From Xestospongia bergquistia (taxonomy: Eukaryota; Porifera; Demospongiae; Haplosclerida; Petrosiidae): DNA of 64,000 nt. Below the pieces are notes generated by a model, which did not search any database, had not been told where the DNA came from, and saw only the letters and a list, made by a program, of their open reading frames with translations. Below, piece after piece: positions 17,731 through 47,919 of the stretch (its first letter is position 1; every line of letters starts with the position of its first letter). The stretch lies in assembly GCA_963965975.1 (NCBI GenBank), contig OZ014414.1:5989501-6053500 (forward strand), written 5' to 3'. A program made the translations under genes and the position numbers.

Positions 17731-20700
17731 CCCTTAACCCACGTGGGTGGTAGGCATGTTTTGCTATCTCTCACGTGACGCTTGTTATCATTTTTGAAAA
17801 AAGAAAGATGGTTGAAAGTGTCTCTGTCTTTTTCTCTTGCTATTACGATATTCAACTTGTGATCGATGTAGTCCAGTGTCAAGAAATGCTGTAAATACAT
17901 TTGTGAACTAAGGTTTGTACTTCTTTTCGTGAGCGCTGAGGTTTAGTGAGTAATTATGGGCTGTTGTTCATCGATCGATCAGACGTAAGCGCTATTTTGT
18001 TATGTAAAGCTTTTTTCCCTTATGATCAATGTTGTGCATGTCCTGAGTTGCTGGAAATATATTTGTGAGTTAAATTTTGAGCGTCTTTTCGTGAGCGCCT
18101 GTGCTTAGGGGCTGTTGTTCATCAATGGATGGATCAGACGTGAGCACCATTTTTTCGTGTAAATATGGATAGAAACTCATCAAGAGAAATGGTAAGATAA
18201 AGTTATTACTACATAATATTATACTTTTATGCATACAGTATTCTTTACTTTTCATCCCTACAGATATGTAGTGTTGTGGATCTGGTACAACTCAGAACTA
18301 ACATGACTAACATGTAATTGTACATTACAATGTCTACAATAGTATGTTATTTTTGTGTGTGTATGCGCGTGTCTGTATGAGTATAGTTAGTGTGTGTGTT
18401 TCTTTGTCTGTATGAGTATAGTTTGTGTTTGAATATAGTTATGTGGTTTGTTTATGTTTACATAAACAAACCACATAACATAAAATAAAACATGTTCTGT
18501 ATATAATGTATAATTTTGTGTAAGGTTTGCTTACATTTTATTCAGCATCCTTATGGATAGAGAGTTCTTCATCAGGAGAAGATTATACATGTATAAGGTG
18601 AATTTATTATTATAATATCATGATCATACTTTTAGAGATATAATTATACTTTTTTGGATACAATGAATATACATTTACACATATAATATTCTTTGTTGAT
18701 CATCACTGTGAATCTTTATGAGTAAGGTACAACTCAAAACATGGAGTAACACATAATGGTACGTTACAATGTCGACAATAGTATGTGGCTGTTTTTCATT
18801 TCCTTCCTTTCTTAAAGCTGCACACCACGCACTCTCTTTGAGACTTGAGACCACTCGCACGTAGAGAAAGTTTAGAAGGAATGTGACGACCAGTGAGCCG
18901 ATTGTGTGGTGATTGAAGTCCCTCATTTTCTTCCGTTGTTGTGTGCCCAGCTTCAAGAAGTAAGCTGTTAGCAATGTCTATCCTGTATTGAGCATGAGAC
19001 TTGTGTTTCCTTCCTTGATGGGAAAGTTTGTACAATATTAACTATTCACAATTGCCAAGTCCAGTAGGTGAAATGCTGCTCGATTCGACCATTTCAGGGT
19101 CTTATGTATAAACCCATAATATGAGAGAAGTTGGTCAATTCTGTCTACTCCTCCCATGTGCTTATTGTATTCCTCAATACATAGTGGTTTGTTTACATCC
19201 TCTTCATTGTCCTTTCCGAATCGGCTCCTCCTCTTTTTGGATATCATTTTGTTGTCATGAATTGTTGTGAGCATTGTAATCAATCGTTTGTCTTGCCATT
19301 GTAAAGCCATTACCCTATTTAACTTCTTTGTTCTTACATCTCCTTTATTCATTTTACACTCTTTTCTTTTCTAGATATTTTCCATTCCTCAGGCATTCCT
19401 TGTCTGTTCACTCGAGCAGTTCCACAGGCTCCAAATCCATTTTGAGCCATCTCAAGGAACACTGCTGGACTTGTATAATAATTGTCCATGTATACGTGGT
19501 GGTCATTTCTTTCATACCCCTCCAGCAACCGCATAACGATACAGTGTGTTGTCATTCTTTCGCTTGTCACCTGTAAAGTGCCATCTTTGCCTATAACATT
19601 GGAAGGTAAAGGATATTATTGATATGCATCTACAATTTGTAGTTAGATGCCTGTTTGGTGTACCATAATTTGCTTATACTTCATTATTGATTGTTCAAAA
19701 AATTATTTCCTTAGTGCATACCTCAATTTTGTTTCAAGGTGAATGAAATAAGCAATAAATGTACATAGTGTTTTAGTAATTGAAGCTAACTTTGCAACAC
19801 CTATAGTAGAAGTTATTACTAATGTTTACACTGATAGGGTGAGAGTAAAAAAGGCAAATTACGGTACATAGCATTGCGTGATTATAATGGTAATCAATCA
19901 TACCTGCATACAGTTTCCAATTTAGTGTGTAACCTGTTTTTGCATCTGCCAGTGAAATGCCTTCAGTCCCAATTTTTTGGGTTTTTTAGGCATATGTTTT
20001 AAAAACCAGGCTCTGCCTTTGAAGCTCACCATTGCTTCATCTAATGAGAGTTCTTTATTTGGAGTATACCATTTATTGAAATTGTGAATAAGAGAAGTGA
20101 GTATAGGTCTTATTTTTTACAGTGGATCATGCCCGACTTCACCTCTTTTGACATATTTAGAGCTGTCGTTTACATGAAAAAACTTCAAGATTAGTGAGAA
20201 ACAATCTCGGGTCATTATCTTACTAAAGGAATGTGATTCAAATGGCCATTTTTGTGCCCAGTGGTCTTCCATCCTTGGAAGTCGGACCACACCCATTACA
20301 ACAATGAGAGCAAGAACCTTCAAAAATTCTGAAACACTCAAAAAAATTTTTTTCCAGGAATGAAGTCGTGACCTTGGTGGTATTGCACTGTGGTTTTCGA
20401 AGAATTCATTAGCATACAGGTTGGTTTGATCAACAATGTTATCCAGTGTGACCAGCATCTTGAAAAAGTCAATCGGTGATTTATTATTCATATCTATTTT
20501 GCATTTGCCTGTAGATGTGTCAACTGAAATTGTACTAGGTATAGTAGGTGGTAAGCACTTGGAACAGTACTTGGAGGACAAGCACTTGGAGCAGCGGATA
20601 CAGCAGAATCTTCATACTCATCAACATACATTTCATCAGGCACTTCATTGACCATAAATAATTCATTTAATTCGTCATTCTTGCATTCAACTTCATCACA

Positions 20701-21303: not shown

Positions 21304-22358
21304 TTAACAAACAATAAGGCAGAAACAGTTTTTATTGTACATTATCCAACGTTTTCATTTGCATGAGTACTGTCACTTACAGCTAATATACGTTATCTAG
21401 TAAAGTCTGACCTTTAACTAATGAGATATTGACACATCTCGGATAGTGACAGAATAGTGTACTAATCTATCAAATACTTCACTTACTAATCAGGCATAGT
21501 TTAGCCTTCTTAATGTTAGTAAAGAAGTCAAATGAGAGCATTTTTCCTGGTTAGTAACCCATCACGAGGTCCTGTGGTTTAATCATGTACCATTATTCAA
21601 TACGGAGTAAGATTACGGAAACATTGAAAAATAGCTAAAAATCCATTTTTCTCGATAAAAAAACTTACAAACGAAGCGTCTTCTTTCTGTGGTATCTTGG
21701 AAATGGAACGCGTGATTCCAAAGGACAAACATATTTTGTAGCCAAAAACAGGTACTATTTTCGTATTAAGGGTCACATATTATAATATTACACGAACATA
21801 AGTATTTCGGCATAAATAAAAAAAGCCGTGCATGCGTTTTCATCATTCTTGTGTAGAAGCTTTAATTCGGATTTATTTTTCTCCTGACCTTTTCTTACTA
21901 GTAAGAACAGGTAGAATAACTAATAGAAGTGCCTATAGGTCTGGTAACTGGACAAGTTAATTCAAGATTATAGGCCCGGCCATTGAAACAACGCCTAAAA
22001 GGTAAACTACACCCAACTGACCCAAGCAGCAACTATATACCTCTTTTACTGTGTTTGGCTTCAAGATATGTTCTTTTACTTTTATGATTATATTTATGTC
22101 GTAAAGATAATTATAAATACTACAAACTCGTCTACAAAATGGCTTATTGTCCTTCTGTTATTTTGAACTAAGAATCAAAGCAATTACAGTAGTAATTGCT
22201 TTGTTAATACTTTTAGCCTATATAACAGTACTCATGCAATAAACAGTACCTGTTAATTCAAGTACCAATGATCACTTGAAGTATCAAGTATCAATGATCA
22301 CCACATGTGCAGGTGTATAGGGACTTCATTATTTATTTTATGTAAATCTGTTAAACTT
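21304..22358. other. Spacer between piggyBac 2 and the TIR array
   Basis: About 1 kb without recognisable coding sequence, RNA gene or transposon end. The array begins sharply at GAATAGAGGAGTTTAGAGCT (22359). Confidence 0.5.
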
Positions 22359-22779
22359 GAATAGAGGAGTTTAGAGCTACATGTAGCATATCCTTTTATT
22401 CACTTTTTATTTCTTGTAATTTACGTAAGCTTAATCACTATTGACTCTTCTATAGTAAAGTTAAATAGTTAAATTTTAGACTTCTTTATTTGGACATATG
22501 TTAAAAATCTATTGTACATTTAATTTTTATTAACTAAAAATAATGAGAAAATATAGTTGATCAGAAGAACAACTGACTTTATCAACTTTAAATGATATAA
22601 AATGTATAAAACTAATGATCACTCTGTGTCAATTCCAAAAGTACACTGTCAGTTGACTCTATTGTTAAACCTTAGCCCTATCAGCTATACTTAAACACTG
22701 ACATTAAAGTATGTGGTCTAAGATTTGGACTCTCCCAAAAGGTGTAATATACTTATTGTGAAGCGTTTGCATAATCTAC

Positions 22780-23085
22780 TAATTAGATTGATAATCTAAA
22801 CAGAAGGTGGTCTTAGATGGTGTATAATATACACTTTATCATGGAACACCTTCATATTCTGAGAAGGCTGGTAATCCAAACAGAAGGTTGTCTTAGTTGT
22901 ACATTCTTATGGAACACTGAGTAATCTGGGAAGACTAGTAATTTCAAACAGAAGGTGGTCTTAGTTGGTATATAATGTACTGTATCATGGAACACCTAAG
23001 TAATCTGGGAGGCTGGTAATCCAAACAGAAGGTGGTCTTATAGATTATAATCTTTTCATTAACTTGTTGTGGTAGTATTCAAGGT
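22780..23085 (+). repeat. About 70-bp repeats in the upstream region of each TIR gene
   Basis: Upstream of every TIR gene lie about four related sub-repeats built from GGTAATCCAAACAGAAGGTG, GTCTTAG, a TATAAT-like word, ATCATGGAACAC and TAATCTGGGA. Equivalent blocks precede each unit (for example 24020-24275 and 29535-29790). The tandem arrangement next to a core promoter suggests enhancer or promoter elements, which is inference. An inverted decayed copy occurs at 41905-42015. Confidence 0.6.
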
Positions 23086-23094
23086 GAACATTAC

Positions 23095-23102
23095 TATATA
23101 AA
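23095..23102 (+). promoter_or_regulatory. TATA box of TIR gene 1 (repeated in every unit)
   Basis: TATATAAA lies 53 bp before the ATG at 23156. The same word sits at the same spacing before each other TIR gene (about 24330, 25850, 27085, 28605 and 29833). Transcription would start about 30 bp downstream, leaving a very short leader. The position and conservation support an own promoter per unit. Confidence 0.6.
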
Positions 23103-23155
23103 CCATTTACCCAACTCTCAAATTTGCGAAGTGATTATTCATTCTCTGTCTAGTG

Positions 23156-23599
23156 ATGAAGATCTTCATTAGTTACAGTACTAAAGAAGTCAGCCAGTTT
23201 GCTAAAGAGCTGAAATCAAACTTCAAGGGTAAGCCTGGTGTTGCTGAAGTATTTATCTGTGAAGAAGATATTTCTCCTGGTGAAGTATGGGTAGAGCATA
23301 TTGCCAAAAAAGTAAATGATTGCGATGCTTTTATTCCTATAATAACACAAGAATATCTTAATTCAAAACAATGTTATGAAGAGATCCATTTTGCTCATTA
23401 TAACAAAGAGAAAAAAAGGCATATCTTTCCAATCCTCATTAAAGACCGTAAACCAGAGTTTGAAAAAGGTCAATATGGTGGGGATATACAAATGATGGTG
23501 AACATAGTTCAACACACAACTTTCAAAACCACAAAAGTGGAGCAGGACGTATTTGATAAGTTCCTAGAAGATATCAAGCAGAAAGTTCTGGGTGAATAG
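23156..23599 (+). CDS. TIR-domain protein, array copy 1
   Basis: A 147-residue protein that is a TIR domain and little else. It starts at ATG 23156 (MKIFISYST); a GTG one codon earlier is not the start. Visible landmarks are box-1-like FISYS (residues 4-8), the BB-loop region with EEDISPGEVW (36-45), DAFIPIITQEYLNS (57-70), C-x-x-E-I at 73-77 (Cys73, Glu76) and a basic RHIFPILI strand (88-95). The C-x-x-E motif matches the position of the catalytic Glu in NAD-cleaving TIR domains such as those of SARM1, plants and bacteria. NADase activity is therefore possible but untested. There is no signal peptide or membrane segment, so it should be cytosolic. It ends LGE-TAG with no second domain. It could act as an enzyme, an adaptor or a decoy for the TIR-Death protein encoded by copy 6. 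Confidence 0.88.
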   Translation: MKIFISYSTKEVSQFAKELKSNFKGKPGVAEVFICEEDISPGEVWVEHIAKKVNDCDAFIPIITQEYLNSKQCYEEIHFAHYNKEKKRHIFPILIKDRKPEFEKGQYGGDIQMMVNIVQHTTFKTTKVEQDVFDKFLEDIKQKVLGE

Positions 23600-24390
23600 A
23601 GGAGTTTAGAGCTACATGTAGTATTTCCTTTTATTCACTTTTTGTTTCTTGTAATTTACTTAAGCTTAATCACTATTGACTCTTCTATAGTAAAGTTAAA
23701 TAGTTAAATTTTAGACTTCTTTATTTGGACATATGTTAAAAATCTATTGTACATTTAATTTTTATTAACTAAAAATAATGAGAAAATATAGTTGATCAGA
23801 AGAACAACTGACTTTATCAACTTTAAATGATATAAAATGTATAAAACTAATGATCACTCTGTGTCAATTCCAAAAGTACACTGTCAGTTGACTCTATTGT
23901 TAAACCTTAGCCCTATCAGCTATACTTAAACACTGACATTAAAGTATGTGGTCTAAGATTTGGACTCTCCCAAAAGGTGTAATATACTTATTGTGAAGCG
24001 TTTGCATAATCTACTAATTAGATTGATAATCTAAACAGAAGGTGGTCTTAGATGGTGTATAATATACACTTTATCATGGAACACCTTCATATTCTGAGAA
24101 GGCTGGTAATCCAAACAGAAGGTTGTCTTAGTTGTACATTCTTATGGAACACTGAGTAATCTGGGAAGACTAGTAATTTCAAACAGAAGGTGGTCTTAGT
24201 TGGTATATAATGTACTGTATCATGGAATACCTAAGTAATCTGGGAGGCTGGTAATCCAAACTGAAGGTGGTCTTATAGATTATAATCTTTTCATTAACTT
24301 GTTGTGGTAGTATTCAAGGTGAACATTACTATATAAACCATTTACCCAACTCTCAAATTTGCGAAGTGATTATTCATTCTCTGTCTAGTG

Positions 24391-24834
24391 ATGAAGATCT
24401 TCATTAGTTACAGTACTAAAGAAGTCAGCCAGTTTGCTAAAGAGCTGAAATCAAACTTCAAGGGTAAGCCTGGTGTTGCTGAAGTATTTATCTGTGAAGA
24501 AGATATTTCTCCTGGTGAAGTATGGGTAGAGCATATTGCCAAAAAAGTAAATGATTGCGATGCTTTTATTCCTATAATAACACAAGAATATCTTAATTCA
24601 AAACAATGTTATGAAGAGATCCATTTTGCTCATTATAACAAAGAGAAAAAAAGGCATATCTTTCCAATCCTCATTAAAGACCGTAAACCAGAGTTTGAAA
24701 AAGGTCAATATGGTGGGGATATACAAATGATGGTGAACATAGTTCAACACACAACTTTCAAAACCACAAAAGTGGAGCAGGACGTATTTGATAAGTTCCT
24801 AGAAGATATCAAGCAGAAAGTTCTGGGTGAATAG
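24391..24834 (+). CDS. TIR-domain protein, array copy 2
   Basis: Identical in protein sequence to copy 1, with the same ATG, TATA spacing and TAG after LGE. The upstream region differs from copy 1 by only a few bases (for example GGAATACC for GGAACACC near 24224). Identity over both gene and flanks points to very recent duplication or gene conversion. Confidence 0.88.
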   Translation: MKIFISYSTKEVSQFAKELKSNFKGKPGVAEVFICEEDISPGEVWVEHIAKKVNDCDAFIPIITQEYLNSKQCYEEIHFAHYNKEKKRHIFPILIKDRKPEFEKGQYGGDIQMMVNIVQHTTFKTTKVEQDVFDKFLEDIKQKVLGE

Positions 24835-25264
24835 AGGAGTTTAGAGCTACATGTAGTATTTCCTTTTATTCACTTTTTGTTTCTTGTAATTTACTTAAGC
24901 TTAATCACTATTGACTCTTCTATAGTAAAGTTAAATAGTTAAATTTTAGACTTCTTTATTTGGACATATGTTAAAAACCTATTGTACATTTAATTTTTAT
25001 TAACTAAAAATAATGAGAAAATATAGTTGATCAGAAGAACAACTGACTTTATCAACTTTAAATGATATAAAATGTATAAAACTAATGATCACTCTGTGTC
25101 AATTCCAAAAGTACACTGTCAGTTGACTCTATTGTTAAACCTTAGCCCTATCAGCTATACTTAAACACTGACATTAAAGTATGTGGTCTAAGATTTGGAC
25201 TCTCCCAAAAGGTGTAATATACTTATTGTGAAGCGTTTGCATAATCTACTAATTAGATTGATAA

Positions 25265-25835
25265 TCTAAACAGAAGGTGGTCTTAGATGGTGTATAATAC
25301 ACTTTATCATGGAACACCTTCATAATCTGAGAAGGCTGGTAATCCAAACAGAAGGTTGTCTTAGTTGTACATTCTTATGGAACACTGAGTAATCTGGGAA
25401 GACTAGTAATTTCAAACAGAAGGTGGTCTTAGTTGGTATATAATGTACTGTATCATGGAACACCTGAGTAATCTGGGAGGCTGGTAATCCAAACAGAAGG
25501 TGGTCTTATAGATTATAATCTTTTTGTTAACTTGTCGTGGTAGTATTCAAAGTGAAACAGAAAGTGGTCTTAGATGGTGTATAATACACTTTATCATGGA
25601 ACACCTGCGTAACCTGAGAAGGCTGGTAATCCAAACAGAGGGTTGTCTTAGTTGTACATTCTTATGGAACACTGAGTAATCTGGGAAGACTAGTAATTTC
25701 AAACAGAAGGTGGTCTTAGTTGGTATATAATGTACTGTATCATGGAACACCTAAGTAATCTGGGAGGCTGGTAATCCAAACTGAAGGTGGTCTTATAGAT
25801 TATAATCTTTTCATTAACTTGTTGTGGTAGTATTC
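25265..25835 (+). repeat. Extra 285-bp duplication in units 3 and 5
   Basis: In the 1520-bp units the sub-repeat block, including the TTAACTTGT.GTGGTAGTATTC end, is present twice (about 25265-25550 and 25551-25835). The same duplication is in unit 5 at about 28020-28590. This explains the difference between 1235 and 1520. Confidence 0.75.
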
Positions 25836-25910
25836 AAGGTGAACATTAGTATATAAACCATTTACCCAACTCTCAAATTTGCGAAGTGATTATTCATTCT
25901 CTGTCTAGTG

Positions 25911-26354
25911 ATGAAGATCTTCATTAGTTACAGTACTAAAGAAGTCAGCCAGTTTGCTAAAGAGCTGAAATCAAACTTCAAGGGTAAGCCTGGTGTTGCT
26001 GAAGTATTTATCTGTGAAGAAGATATTTCTCCTGGTGAAGTATGGGTAGAGCATATTGCCAAAAAAGTAAATGATTGCGATGCTTTTATTCCTATAATAA
26101 CACAAGAATATCTTAATTCAAAACAATGTTATGAAGAGATCCATTTTGCTCATTATAACAAAGAGAAAAAAAGGCATATCTTTCCAATCCTCATTAAAGA
26201 CCGTAAACCAGAGTTTGAAAAAGGTCAATATGGTGGGGATATACAAATGATGGTGAACATAGTTCAACACACAACTTTCAAAACCACAAAAGTGGAGCAG
26301 GACGTATTTGATAAGTTCCTAGAAGATATCAAGCAGAAAGTTCTGGGTGAATAG
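25911..26354 (+). CDS. TIR-domain protein, array copy 3
   Basis: The same 147-residue TIR protein as copies 1 and 2. Its unit has the longer 1520-bp spacer, with a second set of upstream sub-repeats and a small change just before the TATA box (TTAGTATATAAA instead of TTACTATATAAA). If the sub-repeats are regulatory, its expression may differ from that of the short-spacer copies. Confidence 0.87.
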   Translation: MKIFISYSTKEVSQFAKELKSNFKGKPGVAEVFICEEDISPGEVWVEHIAKKVNDCDAFIPIITQEYLNSKQCYEEIHFAHYNKEKKRHIFPILIKDRKPEFEKGQYGGDIQMMVNIVQHTTFKTTKVEQDVFDKFLEDIKQKVLGE

Positions 26355-27145
26355 AGGAGTTTAGAGCTACATGTAGTATTTCCTTTTATTCACTTTTTGT
26401 TTCTTGTAATTTACTTAAGCTTAATCACTATTGACTCTTCTATAGTAAAGTTAAATAGTTAAATTTTAGACTTCTTTATTTGGACATATGTTAAAAACCT
26501 ATTGTACATTTAATTTTTATTAACTAAAAATAATGAGAAAATATAGTTGATCAGAAGAACAACTGACTTTATCAACTTTAAATGATATAAAATGTATAAA
26601 ACTAATGATCACTCTGTGTCAATTCCAAAAGTACACTGTCAGTTGACTCTATTGTTAAACCTTAGCCCTATCAGCTATACTTAAACACTGACATTAAAGT
26701 ATGTGGTCTAAGATTTGGACTCTCCCAAAAGGTGTAATATACTTATTGTGAAGCGTTTGCATAATCTACTAATTAGATTGATAATCTAAACAGAAGGTGG
26801 TCTTAGATGGTGTATAATATACACTTTATCATGGAACACCTTCATATTCTGAGAAGGCTGGTAATCCAAACAGAAGGTTGTCTTAGTTGTACATTCTTAT
26901 GGAACACTGAGTAATCTGGGAAGACTAGTAATTTCAAACAGAAGGTGGTCTTAGTTGGTATATAATGTACTGTATCATGGAACACCTAAGTAATCTGGGA
27001 GGCTGGTAATCCAAACTGAAGGTGGTCTTATAGATTATAATCTTTTCATTAACTTGTTGTGGTAGTATTCAAGGTGAACATTACTATATAAACCATTTAC
27101 CCAACTCTCAAATTTGCGAAGTGATTATTCATTCTCTGTCTAGTG

Positions 27146-27589
27146 ATGAAGATCTTCATTAGTTACAGTACTAAAGAAGTCAGCCAGTTTGCTAAAGAGC
27201 TGAAATCAAACTTCAAGGGTAAGCCTGGTGTTGCTGAAGTATTTATCTGTGAAGAAGATATTTCTCCTGGTGAAGTATGGGTAGAGCATATTGCCAAAAA
27301 AGTAAATGATTGCGATGCTTTTATTCCTATAATAACACAAGAATATCTTAATTCAAAACAATGTTATGAAGAGATCCATTTTGCTCATTATAACAAAGAG
27401 AAAAAAAGGCATATCTTTCCAATCCTCATTAAAGACCGTAAACCAGAGTTTGAAAAAGGTCAATATGGTGGGGATATACAAATGATGGTGAACATAGTTC
27501 AACACACAACTTTCAAAACCACAAAAGTGGAGCAGGACGTATTTGATAAGTTCCTAGAAGATATCAAGCAGAAAGTTCTGGGTGAATAG
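27146..27589 (+). CDS. TIR-domain protein, array copy 4
   Basis: Identical protein to copies 1-3, in a short (1235-bp) unit. With copy 5 it forms the second round of the 2755-bp higher-order repeat, so it is the counterpart of copy 2. Confidence 0.87.
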   Translation: MKIFISYSTKEVSQFAKELKSNFKGKPGVAEVFICEEDISPGEVWVEHIAKKVNDCDAFIPIITQEYLNSKQCYEEIHFAHYNKEKKRHIFPILIKDRKPEFEKGQYGGDIQMMVNIVQHTTFKTTKVEQDVFDKFLEDIKQKVLGE

Positions 27590-28665
27590 AGGAGTTTAGA
27601 GCTACATGTAGTATTTCCTTTTATTCACTTTTTGTTTCTTGTAATTTACTTAAGCTTAATCACTATTGACTCTTCTATAGTAAAGTTAAATAGTTAAATT
27701 TTAGACTTCTTTATTTGGACATATGTTAAAAACCTATTGTACATTTAATTTTTATTAACTAAAAATAATGAGAAAATATAGTTGATCAGAAGAACAACTG
27801 ACTTTATCAACTTTAAATGATATAAAATGTATAAAACTAATGATCACTCTGTGTCAATTCCAAAAGTACACTGTCAGTTGACTCTATTGTTAAACCTTAG
27901 CCCTATCAGCTATACTTAAACACTGACATTAAAGTATGTGGTCTAAGATTTGGACTCTCCCAAAAGGTGTAATATACTTATTGTGAAGCGTTTGCATAAT
28001 CTACTAATTAGATTGATAATCTAAACAGAAGGTGGTCTTAGATGGTGTATAATACACTTTATCATGGAACACCTTCATAATCTGAGAAGGCTGGTAATCC
28101 AAACAGAAGGTTGTCTTAGTTGTACATTCTTATGGAACACTGAGTAATCTGGGAAGACTAGTAATTTCAAACAGAAGGTGGTCTTAGTTGGTATATAATG
28201 TACTGTATCATGGAACACCTGAGTAATCTGGGAGGCTGGTAATCCAAACAGAAGGTGGTCTTATAGATTATAATCTTTTTGTTAACTTGTCGTGGTAGTA
28301 TTCAAAGTGAAACAGAAAGTGGTCTTAGATGGTGTATAATACACTTTATCATGGAACACCTGCGTAACCTGAGAAGGCTGGTAATCCAAACAGAGGGTTG
28401 TCTTAGTTGTACATTCTTATGGAACACTGAGTAATCTGGGAAGACTAGTAATTTCAAACAGAAGGTGGTCTTAGTTGGTATATAATGTACTGTATCATGG
28501 AACACCTAAGTAATCTGGGAGGCTGGTAATCCAAACTGAAGGTGGTCTTATAGATTATAATCTTTTCATTAACTTGTTGTGGTAGTATTCAAGGTGAACA
28601 TTACTATATAAACCATTTACCCAACTCTCAAATTTGCGAAGTGATTATTCATTCTCTGTCTAGTG

Positions 28666-29109
28666 ATGAAGATCTTCATTAGTTACAGTACTAAAGAAGT
28701 CAGCCAGTTTGCTAAAGAGCTGAAATCAAACTTCAAGGGTAAGCCTGGTGTTGCTGAAGTATTTATCTGTGAAGAAGATATTTCTCCTGGTGAAGTATGG
28801 GTAGAGCATATTGCCAAAAAAGTAAATGATTGCGATGCTTTTATTCCTATAATAACACAAGAATATCTTAATTCAAAACAATGTTATGAAGAGATCCATT
28901 TTGCTCATTATAACAAAGAGAAAAAAAGGCATATCTTTCCAATCCTCATTAAAGACCGTAAACCAGAGTTTGAAAAAGGTCAATATGGTGGGGATATACA
29001 AATGATGGTGAACATAGTTCAACACACAACTTTCAAAACCACAAAAGTGGAGCAGGACGTATTTGATAAGTTCCTAGAAGATATCAAGCAGAAAGTTCTG
29101 GGTGAATAG
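28666..29109 (+). CDS. TIR-domain protein, array copy 5
   Basis: Identical protein to copies 1-4, in a long (1520-bp) unit like copy 3. It is the last of the identical copies before the diverged copy 6. Its TAG-containing 3' end (GGTGAATAG) is where copy 6 has the splice-donor-like GGTGAGTGAG. Confidence 0.87.
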   Translation: MKIFISYSTKEVSQFAKELKSNFKGKPGVAEVFICEEDISPGEVWVEHIAKKVNDCDAFIPIITQEYLNSKQCYEEIHFAHYNKEKKRHIFPILIKDRKPEFEKGQYGGDIQMMVNIVQHTTFKTTKVEQDVFDKFLEDIKQKVLGE

Positions 29110-29893
29110 AGGAGTTTAGAGCTACATGTAGTATTTCCTTTTATTCACTTTTTGTTTCTTGTAATTTACTTAAGCTTAATCACTATTGACTCTTCTATAG
29201 TAAAGTTAAATAGTTAAATTTTAGACTTCTTTATTTGGACATATGTTAAAAACCTATTGTACATTTAATTTTTATTAACTAAAAATAATGAGAAAATATA
29301 GTTGATCAGAAGAACAACTGACTTTATCAACTTTAAATGATATAAAATGTATAAAACTAATGATCACTCTGTGTCAATTCCAAAAGTACACTGTCAGTTG
29401 ACTCTATTGTTAAACCTTAGCCCTATCAGCTATACTTAAACACTGATATTAAAGTATGTGGTCTAAGATTTGGACTCTCCCAAAAGGCGTAATATACTTA
29501 TTGTGAAGTATTTGCATAATCTACTAATTAGATTGATAATCTAAACAGAAGGTGTTCTTAGATGGCACTTTATCATGGAACACCTGCATAATATGAGAAG
29601 GCTGGTAATCCAAACAGAAGGTTGTCTTAGTTGTACTTTCTTATGGAACACTGAGTAATCTGGGAAGACTAGTAATTTCAAACAGAAGGTGGTCTTAGTT
29701 GGTGTATAATGTACTGTATCATGGAACACCTGAGTAATCTGGGAGGCTGATAATCCAAACAGAAGGTGGTCTTATAGATTATAATCTTTTTGTTAACTTG
29801 TTGTGGTAGTATTCAAGGTGAATTAACATTAGTATATAAACCATTTACCCAACTCTCAAATTTGTGAAGTGATTATTCATTCTCTGTCTAGTG

Positions 29894-32800
29894 ATGAAGA
29901 TCTTCATTAGTTACAGTACTAAAGAAGTCAGCCAGTTTGCTAAAGAACTGCAATCAAACTTCAAGGATAAGCCTGGTGTTGCTGAAGTATTTGTCTGTGA
30001 AAAAGATGTTTCTGGTGGTGATGTATGGGGAGAGCATATTGCCAAAAAAGTAAATGATTGCGACGCTTTTATTCCTATAATAACACAAGAATATCTTAAT
30101 TCAAAACCATGTTATCAAGAGATCCATCATGCTCATTATAACAAAGAGAAAAAAAGGCATATCTTTCCAATCCTCATTAAAGACCGTAAACCAGAGTATG
30201 AAAAAGGTGAATATGGTAGGGATATACAAATGATGGTGAACATACTTCAATACACAACTTTCAAAACCACAAAAGTGGAGCAGGATATATTTGATAAGTT
30301 CCTAGCAGATATCAAGCAGAAAGTTCTGGGTGAGTGAGTAACTTAACAGTTCTTACTAATGTTACTGTTGTTATCTATTTGTAGGTGTACATGTAGCTAC
30401 TGAGACAGCACAAGGTAATAAATTATAATTATATTATGAATAACTTCTTGGCATATACAATTTAATTATATATAGGACATTCAGTTGAAACAAACAAAGA
30501 AACAGTCATATCAGGTAAACATTCTGTATTGTTAACTGTTATAGTACACCAAAATAAAGTTAAACTATCCACACAACATAGAAATCACATAATAGCCAAA
30601 CACCTCAACACAAGGCAGCTAATCTGAACAGCGCATCAATATCTCATCATAGTTTCTATAATTATACATATGTATATAGTATATACGTGGTTCAGTCTAG
30701 TCTCGTCCCCAGACCTACTCGCAAGCGAAAGTATGTCGAGTTGTCCCAATGTGGCGCGGGTGTTGGTATGCAATTAGAGGTAGTGTGAAATATAAATATT
30801 ATTTAATTGAAGTGTTTAAAGCGTAGAGATATATCTACTTCAAATGTTCTCTTTATAATCAACGAAGTTGCAAAAAAATTTGGATTTACTCTCAAAAAGA
30901 ATCAAAAAATTTACAAAATAGATTGTCTATTTCTTTGTGAATCTTCTCTGGTTGCATTTCAAGTTTATTTGTTAAATTACACAGGAACTACTTAGCAACC
31001 TCAGGGTCGTTATTTATTACAATGTGGCTATCACAGATTCATTGATACAATGTAAGCTCAATGTTGAATTAACATAAAGCCAAAACTAGTCAAAGAATGT
31101 ATGTTAAGCAAACTAGAAACCAAAAGGATTTCTTGTAGTTTTATTGAAGCCATGAACAAGAGATGGACTGGATACTATTTGATCTAAAATAACAACAGCT
31201 AACTTTAACTTTAGAGGTCAAATTGAGGATTCACTTTGTTCAAACATTTTTAGGATGAAATTACACAGTGCGATTTGCTGCATTGTCTACAACACAGTAA
31301 GCAACAGTGGAGAAAAGTGTTATGTACATACAACATTGTCGACAACAGCAGACAAGAGGTTATGTATAGACAAAATAGTAGACAATGTTGATTGTAGCAG
31401 TATAATTGAGCACTGTTATTGTTATAAATGTTCAGGTTATATTATAGCCATGTGTTGCTTCTAAGGTTTTTATGAAATAATTATTGCCCACAACAAATGT
31501 TTTGCTAGTAATTTTGGCATTCACAATGACTTCTTAAAAATATGCTAGTGTTACATTTTTTACAAAAATAATGTCATTTCCTTTTAAATGAAAAAGGAAT
31601 GAAAAGCCTTACATTATTTGGAATCTTCTACTTCTGTGTAAGCAAAAGTCTACTTAGTTTATTCCTTATTGTGGTTACATGAAGAAAAGTGCACTATATG
31701 AAAACCATCCATACATGTATAGGGAACTGTACTGTCTGTGTCTGATTGAGGTTCAAATATAATCTTAAAACTTATTTAAGCTTTCATTACTTTTGCAACA
31801 ACATAATTCTGCAAATACTCTGATAAACTCTACGCTATATCCAAGATGTTAGGTTATTAATAATCAGTATAGTATTATCCATTCATAGTATATAGAATTG
31901 CAGTGAATAATACACATATGAGAGAATTTGTTGACGCAACAATTAATTTTGTCATAACACTCGAAGTCAAACAAATTTTAGCCACTGGCATTATAATCAT
32001 GAATGATAGTGCCTGCCTGTTAAACTACAACTGAGGCCACAGGATTTTTAATCAATCACATTGCTAATAGACCTGTTACACAGGGACATTCTATGCTGTA
32101 TATTATATAGGTAGCTGTTCCTATACTGATATTTTTCTCTTGGTAAAAAAAAAATTCTCCATTTTTATAGAAGATAAGCCAGAACATGGCAGTGTGACAC
32201 AGAGCGGTCATCATCAGGTAAATGTGTCTGGAGTTACTGCTGGAGGTAATATAACGATTCACATGGCTGGACAAAGTATGTTATATTATTATTATCCCAG
32301 GCATACTTCATATCTTGTGTAGTCCTAAGATTGTTCTGAGATAAATGTTTAATATTTATGTCATGTGGGTTGTTTATAGGTAATGAGTAACATTCAACCC
32401 TTCTATATAAAAAAAACTTACATAATGTTGTTGAACAAGCAGTTATTTTTTGCTGAATAGGAGGATATTTATGTAACAATACATGTATAATAAAATATGG
32501 AATGATACAAGGATTTTGAAAGTCCTACAATCATTTGGAGCATGTGTTAAGTATGAATTTCTCTGTATATCTATACACTATCATTAATAATATACAAAAC
32601 TTAATTCCTAAATGAGCAGCTATAGCTTCATTGAAAGATCATCATTATTCATTATACCTAAACATTATAGTCAATATTCACAATTTAATTTTGGTTGCAA
32701 GTTATTTGATTGTTGAGAATTCATCTTAGTTAAAATCTATGTTGTATACATGCGTTTGTAGACAATCATCATTTTTCTGCCTGACACAATACACAGTGTG

Positions 32801-35800
32801 TTTGACAGTCCTACAATCATTCAGAGCATGTGTTAACTATGCATTTCTCTGTGTATCCATTCACTAAAATTTATTTTATTGTTGTATGTGACAATTAAAA
32901 GTGATAAATGAAATTAAATGGTATCCTTTGACTTCAATAACACTAACTGTCAATCTTTGATGATGGATGTGACTGATCACATTGGTTATTTGCCTACATT
33001 TCTAGCATTCTATAAGATAGTAGTCTTCCTTAGACACTGCTGCTAATTATTCTAATCTTATATCTCTAGTTATTGTTTCACAGTAAAGTCAGTAAGTATC
33101 TTGATAATTTTCAAATGTTTGGTAGATATCTGTGTATTGTTGCATGATACATGTTTTTCAAATGACTTCCCAGTTTTCCATATGTTTACATTGTCAAGTA
33201 TGACTTATGACTATTGTAAATACATATAAATTAGGTAATGTGATAAAGCCAAATCAATTGTCTTTTTTTTGTTGGACCATTTCTGTATGTGTCCCAATAC
33301 CAATGACATGATTACATTTGTTTTATTGCCTATAACAAAGAAAGGTTGATATGTTAGACAACACTAAATATATTTTTCTGTTCATATCAGTTAATATGGC
33401 TGAAGGTGATGTATGTAAATTTGATTTTCGAGACCATGTCTTGGATCAGCAACCTACTATTGAAGAATTAATTACACATGTATAGAGTTAACTTGAAAGG
33501 GTATAAATTAATTAGCTAACAAAAATAAGCATAATTATTATCTTGTTATTAACAAATCAACTAGTTATGACCTCAATTAGGAAAATGTACTCCTATATAC
33601 ATGTTTGATATATATCACTAAATTCTCCTTCAGTTTTTAATCTCTTAGTTTCACATTGATTTATCAAAATTTTTAAACAAAACATTAGCCTGACATTATT
33701 TTATAAACTTTTAAAGTGCTTCAGAAACATTTTTAACTCCATTTTTTAACTCCATTTTTTTATTTGGACACATTCTTAATACACTGTAGTGACTGTACAT
33801 TAAATGACTTATAATAACACTGCTGTCATCATTATACTCACAAATCATATGTTTGAATTTAAAGGTTGTACGAATATTATAATAGTACACCATAATAATT
33901 TCATAGTTGCATTTTTGGTAGTATTAAATTCCTTTTTATATTTTATCACAACATGCATTGTTGTCACACAAACTGTAATGAGTTTAATAAATTTTCATTG
34001 GTTGCCTATCATATCAGTAGGTATGCATTTAAGTTATGTTATTTATAAACATTCTTCATGAATTAGATAACCTTGGGAAAATCCATGGTATCATCATTGC
34101 ACTCTATGATGAAAGTCATATAATTATAATACAATGAAAAGAACCACAAGAATGTAAGGAATCCAATGATATCAAAGTTAACTCAGTTTCAAGCAGTATA
34201 GCACAAGTTATGATTAAAATTAGTTGTGCAAAGTCAAACGGACAGAGTGTAGCTAAGTCTGAAAGAATTGTTAAAACCAAAAACCTTTCTTAATAGGTAA
34301 TTGCCATTATTATCTGAATAATTGAAAAATGCTATGACTATAGTCATAACATTTTTCAATTATTCAGATTCCTAGTTGAGCTGTTACATAGGAAAACATT
34401 CTATTGTCCATATATATAGCTGTTCCTATACTGATATTTTTCTGTTGGTAGTGAGTTTCCATTACTATAGAAGATGATAAGCCAGAACATGGAAGTGTGA
34501 CACAGAGTACTCAGCAAAACCTGTCTGGAACTACTGTTGGAGGTCATGGAGTGACTCCACAGGATGAACAAATTAATATGTATTATACTATTATTGTGCC
34601 AGGCACACTTCAAATCTCATTTAGTCCTAAGATTGTTTCAGCTGAATGTTTACTAGTAAATATCCATGCATATCACATCATTTTACTAGCCACCACATTA
34701 ATTTTGTAGTAATATAGTCTGTTATTACTGAATTGCAGTGGATATAGATCATTTTAGGCTATGACTAACATGCAACACTATCATTAATATACAAAACTTA
34801 ATTCCTAAATGAGCAGCTATAGCTTCATTGAAAGGTCATCATTATTCACTATACTTAAACATTATAGTCGATATTCACAATTTAATTTTGGTTGCATTTT
34901 ATTGTCTAATATATATATTATATATAATATAATATATTTTTTATCATTTTTTATAAATTAACTTAAAGTTATTTGATTGTTGAGAAATTCATCTTAGTTG
35001 AAGTCTATGTTGTATACATGCGTTTGTAGACAATCATCATTTTTCTGCCTGACACAATACACAGTGTGTTTGACAGTCCTACAATCATTCAGAGCATGTG
35101 TTAACTATGTACTTCACTATGTATCCATTCACTTAAATTTACTTTATTGTTGTATGTGACAAATGAAAGTGATATATGAAATTAAACAGTCTCCTTTAAT
35201 TTAAATAACACTAATTGTCAGTCTTTAATGATAGGTGTGACTGATCACATTGGTTATTTGCTTATATTTCTAGCATTCTTTTATGACATTGGTCTTCCTT
35301 AGGCACTGCTCTAATTATTCAATCTTGTATCTCTAGTCATTGTTTCACAGTAAAGTCAGTGTCTTGATAACTGTCAAATGTTTGGCTGATTTCTATGTAT
35401 TGTTGAATGATGCATGCTTTTCAAATGACTACTCATTTTTCCATTTGTTTACATTGTCAAATATGAATTACGACTATTGTAAATACATATAAATTAAGTA
35501 ATGTGATAACAAACCCACAATTATTAAGTTGATTGTCTTTTTAAGGACCATTTCTGCATGTGTGTCAATACCAATTACATCATTACACTTATTTTATTGC
35601 CTATAACAAATAAAAGCTTGATACGTTTGATCAATACTAAATATTTTTTTCTGATTTCATACCAGGTAATATGGCTGAAGGAGATGTATATGAATCTGAT
35701 TTACCAAAACATGTCTTGGATCAACAACCTACTCCTGAAGAATTAATTACACATGCTAGAACAGGGAAGTGGAAGCTACTGGGTACAAAACTAAAACTGG

Positions 35801-35991
35801 ACGATGTGAATCTAGAAGAATGTCATGATTTAGTTAGTGTGTATAAGTTATGGATTATGGAGAAAGCAAGGGAAGCAACTAGAAGGAATTTATTAAAGGC
35901 TTTATATGCTATTGGACAGCAAAATGTATTAGAGAAATATGAAGATTATCTTAGAAAATTGTTAGTTGACATGCACTATTTAATTTATTAA
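29894..35991 (+). CDS. TIR-Death protein (reverse MyD88 order), exons spread over 6 kb
   Basis: Proposed exons: 29894-30329 (TIR), 30385-30414, 30476-30514, 32171-32275 (Gly-rich) and 35666-35991 (Death), all joined in phase 1 with GT-AG borders. The total is 936 nt, 311 residues and stop. The TIR domain (1-145) differs from copies 1-5 at about 18 sites, including G25D, E37K, P41G, V46G, E75Q and F79H, but keeps Cys73 and Glu76. Residues 146-203 are a linker with SGVTAGGNITI. The Death domain (about 215-300) has W-x-L-L-G, an I-M-E-K-A helix and E-K-Y-E-D-Y-L-R near the end. MyD88 has Death first and TIR last, so the order is reversed. If left unspliced, the TIR exon ends at TGA 30337. It would act as a cytosolic adaptor or effector. 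The exon chain is an inference from phase and splice sites. Confidence 0.65.
30385..30414 (+). CDS. Small linker exon of the TIR-Death gene
   Basis: A 30-nt exon, preceded by TATTTGTAG and followed by GTAATA. In phase 1 it encodes VHVATETAQ. It has no stop in that phase and its length keeps the frame. Confidence 0.5.
30476..30514 (+). CDS. Second small linker exon of the TIR-Death gene
   Basis: A 39-nt exon between TATATAG and GTAAAC. In phase 1 it encodes HSVETNKETVIS. It is polar and probably unstructured. Confidence 0.5.
30690..32100. other. Long intron of the TIR-Death gene with transposon-like debris
   Basis: About 30695-30760 is richer in GC and has the look of a transposon end (GTCTCGTCCCCAGACC). 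A 62-codon frame follows at 30807 that I cannot place with confidence. The rest to 32100 is AT-rich. The segment 31435-31540 is repeated in the same orientation at 48224-48340. Confidence 0.3.
32171..32275 (+). CDS. Gly-rich linker exon of the TIR-Death gene
   Basis: A 105-nt exon (35 codons) following TTTTTATAG and ending before GTATGT. It encodes EDKPEHGSVTQSGHHQ, then VNVSGVTAGGNITI and HMAGQ. The second half alternates small, polar and beta-branched residues and could form a beta strand or amyloid-like contact, as RHIM-type motifs do; this is speculative. A second donor-like CAG/GTAAAT lies inside the exon after 32217. Its use would drop the Gly-rich half and shift the Death exon out of frame. 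Related copies are at 34471 (+), 43332 (-) and 47759 (-). Confidence 0.55.
32780..33390 (+). repeat. Triplicated intron block preceding the Death exons
   Basis: The block with GACAGTCCTACAATCATTCA, a GAGCATGTGTTAAC word, GATGTGACTGATCACATTGG and TTCACAGTAAAGTCAGT occurs here, at about 35060-35665 and at 40370-41227. Each copy ends in a Death exon. The Death exons therefore multiplied by segmental duplication together with about 600 bp of upstream intron. The third copy is split by a solo LTR. Confidence 0.75.
33391..33485 (+). pseudogene. Truncated Death exon 1 of the TIR-Death locus
   Basis: It follows TTCATATCAG and encodes MAEGDVCKF, then DHVLDQQPTIEELITHV, then TAG at 33483-33485, exactly where the intact exons continue with ARTxxW. 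Spliced to the Gly-rich exon it would give a 234-residue TIR protein lacking the Death fold. It may be a dead exon or a natural truncated isoform. Confidence 0.6.
33700..34075 (+). repeat. Dispersed non-coding repeat, copy 1
   Basis: The block containing an NHMFEFKGCT-like frame is similar to 44780-45090 (NHIFEFKCCT) in the same orientation. The frames are hydrophobic and unlikely to be genes. The duplication is part of the wider segmental copying of this locus. Confidence 0.45.
34471..34575 (+). pseudogene. Second Gly-rich linker exon, donor site lost
   Basis: It begins after ATTACTATAG with EDDKPEHGSVTQSTQQ, then LSGTTVGGHGVTPQD. Compared with the exon at 32171, GGNITI has been replaced and the donor GTATGT reads ATATGT, so normal splicing to the Death exon at 35666 is doubtful. 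It is probably a decayed duplicate. Confidence 0.45.
35666..35991 (+). CDS. Death-domain exon 2, intact (terminal exon of TIR-Death gene)
   Basis: It follows TTTCATACCAG and is open in phase 1 for 108 codons to TAA. The protein has a short acidic lead (MAEGDVYESDLPKHVLDQQP) and a six-helix Death-type pattern: ELITHAR, W-x-L-L-G-T-K-L-x-L, LEECHD, YKLWIMEKAR, RRNLLKALYAIG and VLEKYEDYL. Death domains bind other Death domains; candidate partners are those of the gene at 52564-63580. Its second upstream ATG is also usable, so a Death-only protein from a local promoter is possible. Confidence 0.75.
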
Positions 35992-36377
35992 GTCATATAT
36001 GGCTATGTGCAGAGAGTGGTTCCTAGTGTCTGTTTGTCCTGTATATGTAATTACATTAGTCCTTATACTAATAAAATAATCTATAGGTGACCAAGTATTT
36101 TTTTAATGTTATAGAATTTATAAATGAGGAGCTTTATAACTCTGAATAGCACTATAAGTTAGCTGAATATTTCAAAATCTTGTTTCACAGTGTAGCATAT
36201 AATATATACTATTAGAGATAGCCCTGAACTTGCTAAAGTCATCTGGTATGTACATATTATATAGTATTTATACATGATTTGATACAGAAATCTATATACA
36301 TAATTTGCCAAGGAGTGATTTGTAAAATATTGAGTCGACATTTTTGCATATAGCCTATGGCCCCTTGATTCATGACA

Positions 36378-41227: not shown

Positions 41228-41529
41228 GTGTTGTTGCTGAAGGTGATGTATACAAATCTGATTTACCAAATCATGTCTTGGATCAACAACCTACAATTCA
41301 AGAATTAACTAAACATGCTAGAACTGCAGATTGGAATAAGTTGGGTGTGGAACTAAAACTGGACTGTGTGTCTCTAGCTGAGTGCAATGACTATACTAGT
41401 ATGTATCAACTGTGGATTATGGAGAAAGCAAGAAAAGCTACTAGATGGAATTTATTAAATGCTTTACATGCTCTCAAATTAGGCGCTATAATTCAGAAAT
41501 ATGAAGATTATCTGAAAACAGTTAGTTGA
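41228..41529 (+). CDS. Death-domain exon 3, intact alternative terminal exon
   Basis: It follows ATTTCATATCAG and is open in phase 1 for 100 codons to TGA. It encodes VVAEGDVYKSDLPNHVLDQQ, then HARTADWNKLGVELKL, CVSLAEC, YQLWIMEKARKATRWNLLNA and IIQKYEDYL. It differs from exon 2 mainly in the loop after helix 2 and in the last third. Joined to the upstream exons in place of exon 2 it gives a 303-residue TIR-Death variant in frame. No TIR gene of its own lies between 36000 and 41228. Confidence 0.65.
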
Positions 41530-42129: not shown

Positions 42130-43560
42130 TAGGTAATTTTATGGTTACTCACTTCAACCTTGCTTCCATATTAATTCTTAATTTTATACAACTACCGCAA
42201 TTCAATTTGTCACATCAAATCAATTAAAAACAATGTTTCTAGCAAACAGGCAACATTTACATTTATGTATTTTTTAAAATTTTATTTGGCATACATTAAG
42301 TTGCCAAGGAGTCTTAAATTTACTACAGGAAGTTGTGTTGACTTCATACAATTATTGGAAAAACACACTTCACAAGTGTGAATTGATCTCTGCCATTTTT
42401 ATAGTGTTTCATTAACAATAAACAACAACAATCAATTGACTAGATATCAGTACAGTAGAAGGTATGTACAAAATTATTAAAAGTCATCTATAATTAAAAG
42501 TTTTTTTTGAGCCTTTATTTCAAATAATTACATAGTTTTATTTAATGATGTGCAAATACTTCTGCGACTGGAAGAAATTTTATTTTTTATTAGTATCTAT
42601 AAAAAGGAAAATATTTATGATATAAAAGTAAATATCCAATTCAGTTAGACTCTCTAAGATTAAATTGTCCTAAGATTATTTTGATGGCCTGCTCAGTTTT
42701 TAAATTCACAACTAGACTTGACAGAAACAATTGAGCAAAGACACTTTCTTGGATTACAGTACAACACTATTAGAATGTACTAGCAATGATTTAAAGAAGA
42801 GTAAAATCCTTGCATCACTTTATATTTTATTAAACATGTATTGTTACGTAAATATCCTGCTATCTTACAACAAATGATTGCTTGTTCAACAAGTTTATAT
42901 AAGTTTTAACTTTTTATGGAAGGGTTGAATGTTACTCATTACCTATTGTGATAAGTTAAACAGTTGAATTCAAAAAGTAAAACTTGAAATAATTCTCTAT
43001 GATCAACAACAACAACAAATCAAACCGTAGCTGCAATATTTAAATACAAAACTGAACAAAGTTATAAAATAAAAAGTAGCAAATTAAGATGTACTATTGA
43101 AGAATGAGTATTAACACTACTAAGTATTGTTACTAATCACAAAATAAACATAGAAAGCACCTATTAACAAATACACATGAAAATTTAACCTAACAAAAGA
43201 CACATCATAAACAATTAGTAGGTGACTAAATAAAATACAATTACAATATATTACACCTATAAACAACCCATATAACGTAAGTATTAAAGACTTATCTCAA
43301 AATAATCTGGCATAATGATAGTATAACATACCTTATCCACCACCCATGTGAATCGTTATATTACCTCCAGCAGTAACTCCAGACATGCTTACCTGATGAT
43401 GACCACTCTGTGTCACACTGCCATGTTCTGACTTATCTTCTATAGAAATGGAGATTTTTTTACCAAGAGAAAAATACCAGTAGAGGAACAGCTACATATA
43501 TAATATGCAGCATAGAATGTCCCTGTGTAACAGGTCTACTAGCAATGTGATTGATTAAAA
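42130..43560 (-). repeat. Inverted segmental copy containing a Gly-rich exon, copy A
   Basis: On the minus strand this matches 32060-32500 of the TIR-Death gene (Gly-rich exon and the following intron). On the plus strand it is a direct repeat of 46900-47930, sharing the AAGTTGCCAAGGAGTC, CACACTTCACAAGTGTG and CAATTGACTAGATATCAGTA blocks. The locus was therefore duplicated first in inverted and then in direct orientation. Confidence 0.6.
43332..43439 (-). pseudogene. Gly-rich exon, inverted copy A
   Basis: It encodes EDKSEHGSVTQSGHHQ, then VSMSGVTAGGNITIHMGGG, then TAA just before the donor GTATGT. An internal CAG/GTAAGC donor is stronger than in the other copies. There is no TIR exon upstream of it on this strand, so it is an orphan. 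Confidence 0.5.
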
Positions 43561-46899: not shown

Positions 46900-47919
46900 A
46901 TGTTCATCAGTAGGTAATCTTTTGACTTCTCACTTCAACCATGCTACCATATTAATTCTTAATTTTATACAAGTACCACAATTTATTATGTCTCATTATC
47001 AAATCAATTAAAAACAATGTTTCAAGCAAAGTAAGCCACATATGCATTTAATTATTTTTTAAAATTTAATCTGGCCTGCACGAAGTTGCCAAGGGGTCAT
47101 AAAATTACAACAGGAAGTGGTGTTGTCTTCATACAATTTTGGGAAAAGCACACTTCACAAGTGTGAGTGGACTTACATCATTTTTAAAGTGTTTCATTAA
47201 CAATAAACAATAATAATCAATTGACTGGATATCAGTACAGTAGAAGGTTTATACAAAATTTATATTAAAAGTCATCTATAGTCATGAAGTGTTTCTACAA
47301 CTGGAAGAAAAATTCTAGTTTTTATTAATACCTATAAAAAGGAAAATATTTATCATTATAAAAGTAATTATCTAATCCATTTATACTCTATAAGATTAAA
47401 ATGTCCTAAGATTATTTTGATGGCATGCTTATTGAAAAATACAGAGTTGATGGAAGCTATGGACCAAAGAAACTTTCTTGGATTACAGTACAACATTATT
47501 AGAATCTACTGGCAATGATTTAGAAAGAGTAAAATCCTTGCATCACTCCATGTTTTATCAAACATATATTGTTACAAAAATACCCTGCTATCCTCAACAA
47601 ATGTTTGCTTGCTTAACAAGTTTATGTACTTTTTTATGGAAGGGTTGAATGTTACTCATTACCTATAAACAACCCATATGACATAAGTATTATGTCAAAA
47701 CAATGTTAGGACCACACAAGATATAAAGTGTGTCTGGCGTAATAATAGTATAACATACCTTGTCCACTCAGTTGAATTGTTATATTACCTCCAGCTGTAG
47801 CTCCAGACACATTTACCTGATGATGACCACTCTGTGTCACACTGCCATGTTCTGAGTTGTCTTCTATAGATATGGAGAATTTTTTACCAAGAGAAAAATA
47901 CCAGTATAGGAACAGCTAG

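Follow-up and report, generated by a model that had tools for sequence, protein, structure and literature searches.

SARM1, plant TIR-NLRs, SPARTA and Cat1 are TIR effectors that assemble through SAM, NB-ARC, Argonaute or cyclic-nucleotide sensor modules, whereas the adaptor MyD88 is characterized by an N-terminal Death domain followed by a C-terminal TIR domain. Among animal TIR proteins, SARM1 is the only one named as a known NAD-cleaving enzyme (NADase) in the available part of PMC7075850. In sponges, the accessible sections of PMC8195603 describe expanded Death-domain repertoires of Amphimedon, with TRADD-N proteins in which Death-like units occur together with enzymatic effectors. Here we describe a predicted gene at positions 29894 to 35991 of a 64,000-nucleotide stretch of DNA from the sponge Xestospongia bergquistia (assembly GCA_963965975.1, contig OZ014414.1; G000:C4:5989501–6053500), which we call the window. 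This gene, the window gene, would encode a TIR domain, a linker, a Gly-rich segment and a Death domain, in this order. The genome searched for related loci comprised 146 Mb in 21 contigs; loci elsewhere carry labels such as L018, the contigs concerned are C3, C4, C10 and C13, and positions given without a contig are those of the window.

Results

Five exons bounded by GT–AG introns, with all junctions in phase 1, splice to 936 nucleotides (nt), corresponding to 311 codons and a stop codon at 35991. The first-pass annotation had proposed a chain of phase-1 exons running through a Gly-rich exon over this interval, and every part of it is present; one TIR–linker–Death gene is the best reading of these predicted exons. 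Their lengths are 436, 30, 39, 105 and 326 nt, and all lie on the forward strand. Exon 1 (29894..30329) contains the ATG and the TIR domain (TIR_2) and is followed by the phase-1 donor CTGG/GTGAGT. Exon 2 (30385..30414) and exon 3 (30476..30514) form the linker, exon 4 (32171..32275; EDKPEHGSVTQSGHHQVNVSGVTAGGNITIHMAGQ) is the Gly-rich exon and is open, and exon 5 (35666..35991) carries an intact Death domain and a TAA stop. An AATAAA (36070..36075, forward strand) begins 79 nt past this stop codon. The acceptor of exon 5 ranks first among the 275 AG sites in 30516-35900, with 19.3 bits in a matrix for which 27 acceptors from related loci were used, a rank that is partly expected from homology. 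Among random stretches, about 11% of those with 105 nt and 43-53% of those with 39 or 30 nt are open in the needed phase. Given that such open stretches are common by chance in this region, the open chain alone is weak evidence, and paralogues were used instead. As a prediction, the window locus represents a credible and sound gene model that is probably real, its transcription and splicing being presumed.

A search of the genome with the TIR domain yielded 25 matches, comprising five TIR-only copies that end in TAG (the TAG copies), 18 other TIR loci (L028 and L031 being partial) and two fragments. At the end of the TIR, 17 of the 18 non-TAG loci possess a GT donor in phase 1 whose position +5 is G, the exception being L020 with GTGAAT. 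In L018, whose TIR is 62% identical to that of the window gene, the TIR exon (436 nt) and the two exons after it (30 and 39 nt) equal exons 1–3 in length and phase, the splice sites of the two short exons agree as well, and the phase-1 chain continues in frame to a Death exon of another class. L022 (C10, L022:1501-2723) combines a TIR exon of 433 nt, exons of 36, 36 and 45 nt and a Death exon of 317 nt, all in phase 1, into a compact chain of 288 codons plus stop that fits into 1.2 kb; its Death domain also belongs to another class than that of the window gene. L016 together with L074 forms a chain of TIR (442 nt), 39 nt, 36 nt and Gly (108 nt) that is open throughout and entirely in phase 1, and a segment matching the end of exon 2 and exon 3 was found approximately 1.2 kb upstream of the Gly exon of L071.

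The assumption that TIR before Death is unique to the window gene was rejected, as L018 and L022 read through likewise; these two and the window gene are the ones in which the chain was followed exon by exon into Death. A linkage of TIR to Gly as a novelty in itself was also dropped. Because L016 and L074 already link the two, only the join to the Gly–Death back half is new.

In an alignment of the window gene with L016, L017, L018 and L020, the indels in exons 2 and 3 measure 9 and 3 nt, and those in the flanking introns 1, 2, 4, 7, 9 and 12 nt. Since exon identity (64–73%) is lower than that of most flanking intron stretches (73–88%), the argument drawn from these five loci is one of frame conservation and not of sequence conservation. 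Two reservations apply, namely a compensating pair of 2-nt gaps in the TIR exon of this alignment and the loss of exon 3 in L028, a truncated copy. Gly and Death follow each other on the same strand, with Gly first, from L067 to L037 and from L065 via L085 to L039. A same-strand Gly match lies within 6 kb downstream of six of the seven non-TAG TIR loci in C4:5.4–6.2 Mb, two of these Gly matches (L080, L083) being weak and 5'-truncated. Among the matches listed, at least six of the 18 non-TAG TIR loci (the window gene, its duplicate, L018, L021, L022 and L023) have a same-strand Death match within 6 kb downstream and before the next TIR.

The introns point to a composite origin. Six Gly loci (L065, L067, L068, L069, L076, L077) share intron 3 of the window gene only from about 31434 onward; upstream of this position, all six, including the outgroup pair L076/L077, resemble each other and not the window. 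In a tree of the shared intron part, the window and L065 (88/90 support) fall inside a group of five (100/99), and on the TIR side the paralogue L018 matches window positions 31048–31183. Given that the window gene nests in the Gly group yet differs from it upstream, while L018 matches its TIR side, its lineage is recombinant, with the junction between TIR-gene and Gly–Death-gene sequence bracketed at about 31184..31434 on the forward strand. As judged from these comparisons, the window gene is a recent recombinant, in which a TIR front (exons 1-3) and a Gly–Death back were joined inside intron 3. Its halves trace to two paralogous families joined in a phase-compatible intron, as expected of an exon-shuffled chimera, and the reading frame was kept across the fusion because the junction is in phase 1 on both sides. 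A repeat within intron 3 (30698-30966) also occurs upstream of the TIR genes L016, L017 and L031 at about 81% identity and represents a dispersed element.

A near-identical duplicate of the gene (L089) is located about 125 kb away at C4:6144801–6151300. Non-coding divergence between the window and L065 amounts to 27/729 (3.7%), and that between the window and the duplicate to 15/730 (2.05%) beyond the junction, in the Gly–Death part, and 12/778 (1.54%) before it, in the TIR part. As both duplicates carry the junction, the fusion is older than the duplication. The Death exon and the following 99 nt are unchanged in the duplicate (0/425 differences, compared with about 1.4% in introns 3 and 4). 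A second Gly-exon copy, Gly-B, lies in intron 4 of the window gene (34471..34570, end approximate, forward strand) and has no visible phase-1 donor there. In the duplicate the situation is reversed: the counterpart of exon 4 (Gly-A) is stopped, and Gly-B keeps a possible, weak phase-1 donor (CAGG/GTGAAG). The window gene and its duplicate may use different Gly exons.

The spliced product contains a TIR_2 domain with 59.1 bits in Pfam (cut-off 28). An AlphaFold model of this domain, based on an alignment of 16 TIR members, has a predicted local distance difference test score (pLDDT) of 87.5, and its fold matches those of TIR domains. The best Foldseek match is the RPS4/RRS1 TIR chain (E 6e-6); RPS4/RRS1, L7 and SPARTA lead the ranking, in which TLR15 holds rank 21, MyD88 rank 26 and SARM1 rank 38. 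When the TIR profile was compared with solved structures, Cat1 (E 7e-8) was followed by L6 (3e-5), SIGIRR (4.5e-5) and MyD88 (about 4e-4). Glu76 is invariant in 16 of the 16 aligned members, which were chosen from the 25 matches, and it aligns with the Glu of Cat1 and of L6; we take this conserved Glu to be the catalytic residue of NAD-cleaving TIRs. With both the TIR fold and the conserved Glu that mark NAD-cleaving TIR effectors, the window TIR is predicted to be of the NAD-cutting type.

For the Death domain (PF00531), exon 5 alone scores 24.7-25.1 bits against a cut-off of 22.6, and the full product of 311 amino acids (aa) 21.6 bits, just below it; the first-pass annotation had recognized this domain as intact, and the exon scores agree. 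The AlphaFold model (alignment of 24 Death members, pLDDT 81.7) has six helices, and its fold matches the Death domains of RAIDD, FADD, Fas, RIPK1 and TRADD; Death domains occupy the first 14 of 31 Foldseek rows, none at E 0.001 or better. Both the Death profile and the predicted six-helix fold place the window gene among Death-domain proteins. Its Death exon is of class 1 and belongs to a large family with at least 150 related matches in the genome. In L048, a class-1 Death exon is preceded by a COR-type open reading frame (ORF; COR-A 32.3 bits, below the cut-off of 35.3) that is 61% identical to part of the COR-type ORF in the window (54046–56082). The Gly exon produced 25 matches including itself, 14 of them strong (E <1e-11) and 11 weak (E 2.5e-4 to 0.035); the strong copies retain acceptor and donor, and their lengths vary by 3 nt. 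No Pfam match above cut-off was obtained for the Gly exon in the scan of the spliced product, and no plasmid match was found. That it represents an amyloid-like self-assembly motif is a guess.

The five TAG copies lie upstream of the window gene (23156..29109, forward strand) and have an identical protein ending GGTGAATAG. The first-pass annotation had contrasted the strong donor of the last TIR with the TAG of the other copies. The donor is indeed present; however, an interpretation of the TAG copies as point variants of it was rejected, as they are homologous to the last TIR only up to GGTGA, beyond which the 3' flanks are unrelated. The tandem array (22358-29872) shows spacings of 1235 and 1520 bp, two compared units of 1235 bp are 99.8% identical, and a sixth copy of the 3' flank at 22358 has no listed TIR ORF before it. 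The array could reflect a very recent amplification or the assembly. A minisatellite of about 68-78 bp lies upstream of TIR copies (25262-25843, 28017-28598, 29537-29701), and repeated short matches were observed upstream of the L018 TIR.

Further features near the window gene are a class-1 Death exon (41229-41529) on the forward strand and, on the reverse strand, two Gly exons (43339-43440, with an in-frame TAA just before the donor, and 47760-47864). The reverse strand also carries the COR-type (Roc-COR-like) ORF (54043-56082), two Death exons of the second class (60316-60693, 62554-62910), DDE_Tnp_1_7 transposase ORFs in two places (12268-14273, 19038-20611) and a hAT dimerisation ORF (10179-10745). 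Elsewhere in the genome, in L091 (C3:2651401-2653100, reverse strand), a Death ORF comes after a SEFIR ORF, and the locus is likely a SEFIR-Death gene. At C13:6409201–6411200, an Ig-like segment (Ig_3 29.3 bits, just below the cut-off of 30) precedes a TIR exon, and this locus matches the Ig–TIR receptors known in sponges, as far as the available parts of PMC12909245 and PMC6208332 describe them. A canonical MyD88 was not found among the loci read, of which the one with a strong PF01582 match (L092) is an Ig–TIR receptor; two further loci with such a match lie at C13:5.86 Mb.

Discussion

We see about an even chance that the window locus is a single protein-coding gene for a predicted intracellular TIR–linker–Gly–Death protein of 311 aa, which arose by recent intron recombination, was then duplicated and acts as a Death-recruited effector. 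Several observations weigh against this interpretation. The gene model was read from genome sequence alone, and the NADase activity of the TIR is proposed from similarity only. If the last TIR is left unspliced, it meets a TGA at 30335-30337, two codons past the donor, resulting in a protein of 147 aa, the same length as the TAG copies, which themselves encode TIR-only proteins. The locus would then contain two genes, with TIR-only transcripts that retain intron 1 and stop at 30337 and a separate Gly–Death transcript. For the Gly loci L065, L067, L069 and L076, the 30 kb upstream are free of TIR matches on the same strand, and among the matches listed, no class-1 Death was found near the minus-strand TIR-Gly genes. 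Domain order judged by neighbour position alone is moreover not one-sided, because Death occurs within 6 kb on either side; upstream, this applies to at least five of the 18 non-TAG TIR loci (L019, L022, L024, L028, L030) among the matches listed. Two genes nevertheless appear rather unlikely to us, as the paralogues keep exons 2 and 3 in frame, L016/L074 read from the TIR through to Gly, and L018 and L022 share the TIR-linker-Death plan. The main product might also end in Death-A (33391..33485, forward strand), a cut-off Death exon in intron 4 with a stop about 31 codons in; the first-pass annotation had listed neither this exon nor Gly-B. Such a rival terminal exon would leave a TIR-linker-Gly protein with about 31 additional residues and without a working Death domain, either a decoy or a TIR-only effector. 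The Death-A acceptor (15.2 bits) ranks second among the 275 AG sites and comes earliest in the transcript, and acceptor, phase and stop are retained in L065, L068 and the duplicate, not in L069. We consider this ending improbable, given that the acceptor of the intact Death exon is stronger (19.3 bits) and that the AATAAA nearest to Death-A, at 33986, follows its stop by about 500 nt (an ATTAAA lies at 33799), compared with 79 nt for the intact exon.

Of similarly low probability is a decaying, untranscribed fusion, i.e. a pseudogene, in an unstable immune-gene cluster. In the Gly exon of the duplicate, CAG is changed to the stop TAG, which means that no more than one of the two copies can encode the full chain via this exon. 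Neighbouring copies are broken as well: L020 contains two stops, and there are Death copies whose frames are stopped or split. The TIR differs by three nonsynonymous (N) and one synonymous (S) change between window and duplicate and by 20 N and 3 S between window and TAG copy (w=1.56), which puts its ratio of nonsynonymous to synonymous divergence (dN/dS) near or above 1; the Death dN/dS is 0.55-0.95 between the window and five paralogues, and that of the pooled Gly copies 0.68. Because of these high values, purifying selection on the window gene itself is not demonstrated. They fit a fast-evolving immune gene and also relaxed constraint; none of the 18 amino-acid differences between the window TIR and the TAG copy hits a family-invariant column. 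Decay is also at odds with a window copy that is open throughout and has all its donors, acceptors and AATAAA in place, and with the identity of the Death exon and its 3' continuation between the duplicates. We assign a still lower probability to a MyD88-like adaptor with permuted domains that bridges TIR receptors to Death-domain kinases. Such an adaptor would be consistent with a protein of one TIR, one Death and little else, and with the Ig-TIR receptor locus in this genome, but the TIR scores higher to the Cat1, L6 and RPS4 TIRs than to MyD88, and the halves come from different local gene families via recent recombination. The margin in fold over MyD88 and TLR15 is, however, modest, because all these rows lie within E 6e-6 to 1e-3. 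The first-pass annotation had described the gene as MyD88's domains in reverse. The order is opposite, as stated there, with the TIR preceding Death, whereas the domains are not those of MyD88: the TIR matches Cat1 and L6 best and is not closest to MyD88 TIRs, and the Death domain is from a large local class. Since other genes in the genome share the TIR-then-Death order, the window gene is not a flipped MyD88, and the label "reverse MyD88" is misleading and should be dropped.

If the window gene indeed encodes a single Death-recruited effector, its Death domain would dock homotypically on sensors whose Death domain is of its own class, such as COR-type proteins that contain a class-1 Death exon. 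We infer that such proteins would act as sensors, assemble via their Death domains and recruit TIR–Death proteins as putative partners. This assembly would crowd the TIR domains and thereby activate them, and the crowded TIRs might cleave NAD+ or produce a nucleotide signal via the conserved Glu. The TIR–Death protein would thus be an executioner and not an adaptor, with a logic nearer to that of an effector caspase, SARM1 or a plant TIR than to that of MyD88. In a broader and more speculative picture, which we regard as unlikely in its entirety, this animal genome uses Death domains as a modular code, phase-1 exon shuffling having connected TIR enzymes with different Death classes. On this view, the window gene would encode a fresh Death-recruited TIR NADase executioner, its Death class drawn from an exon family that is also found 3' of COR-type ORFs, and its Gly exon might serve as an amyloid-like self-assembly motif.

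If true, a family of proteins with an NADase-type TIR and a Death domain would connect the assembly of death domains directly with the loss of NAD+. The locus furthermore provides a datable example of such wiring by one in-frame intron recombination. This event is younger than the separation from L065 (3.7% non-coding divergence) and older than the local duplication (about 1.5–2%). The window gene is probably a real new variety within the known domain-shuffled immunity of invertebrates. A TIR-then-Death gene of this type was not found in the literature searched, partly available as text, with most subscription journals outside it.

Several described systems resemble the window gene in part. 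The proteins of Amphimedon also come from a sponge and join Death-like adaptors to effector domains in fast-changing architectures; the effectors named in the available text are caspase, PNPase and HD, with no TIR effector among them (PMC8195603). A sponge gene with TIR and DEATH is mentioned for Dysidea avara in the accessible part of PMC12909245. The placozoan protein with SEFIR and Death, comparable to L091, likewise combines a TIR-related domain with Death; it differs in having SEFIR instead of TIR_2 and is termed MyD88-like in the portion of PMC6321704 available. MyD88 itself, which binds receptor TIRs and IRAK-type Death kinases, is similar in being a soluble protein with a single Death and a single TIR domain. 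It differs in the opposite order of the two, the window TIR scores better to the TIRs of Cat1, L6, RPS4 and SPARTA, and the window Death domain is from a lineage-expanded class in a gene built by recent local exon shuffling. With SARM1, plant TIR-NLRs and SPARTA/Cat1, the window gene shares the TIR fold and the conserved Glu motif, and TIR clustering is the logic proposed here as well; in contrast to these systems, the product of the window gene would use a Death domain as its assembly module.

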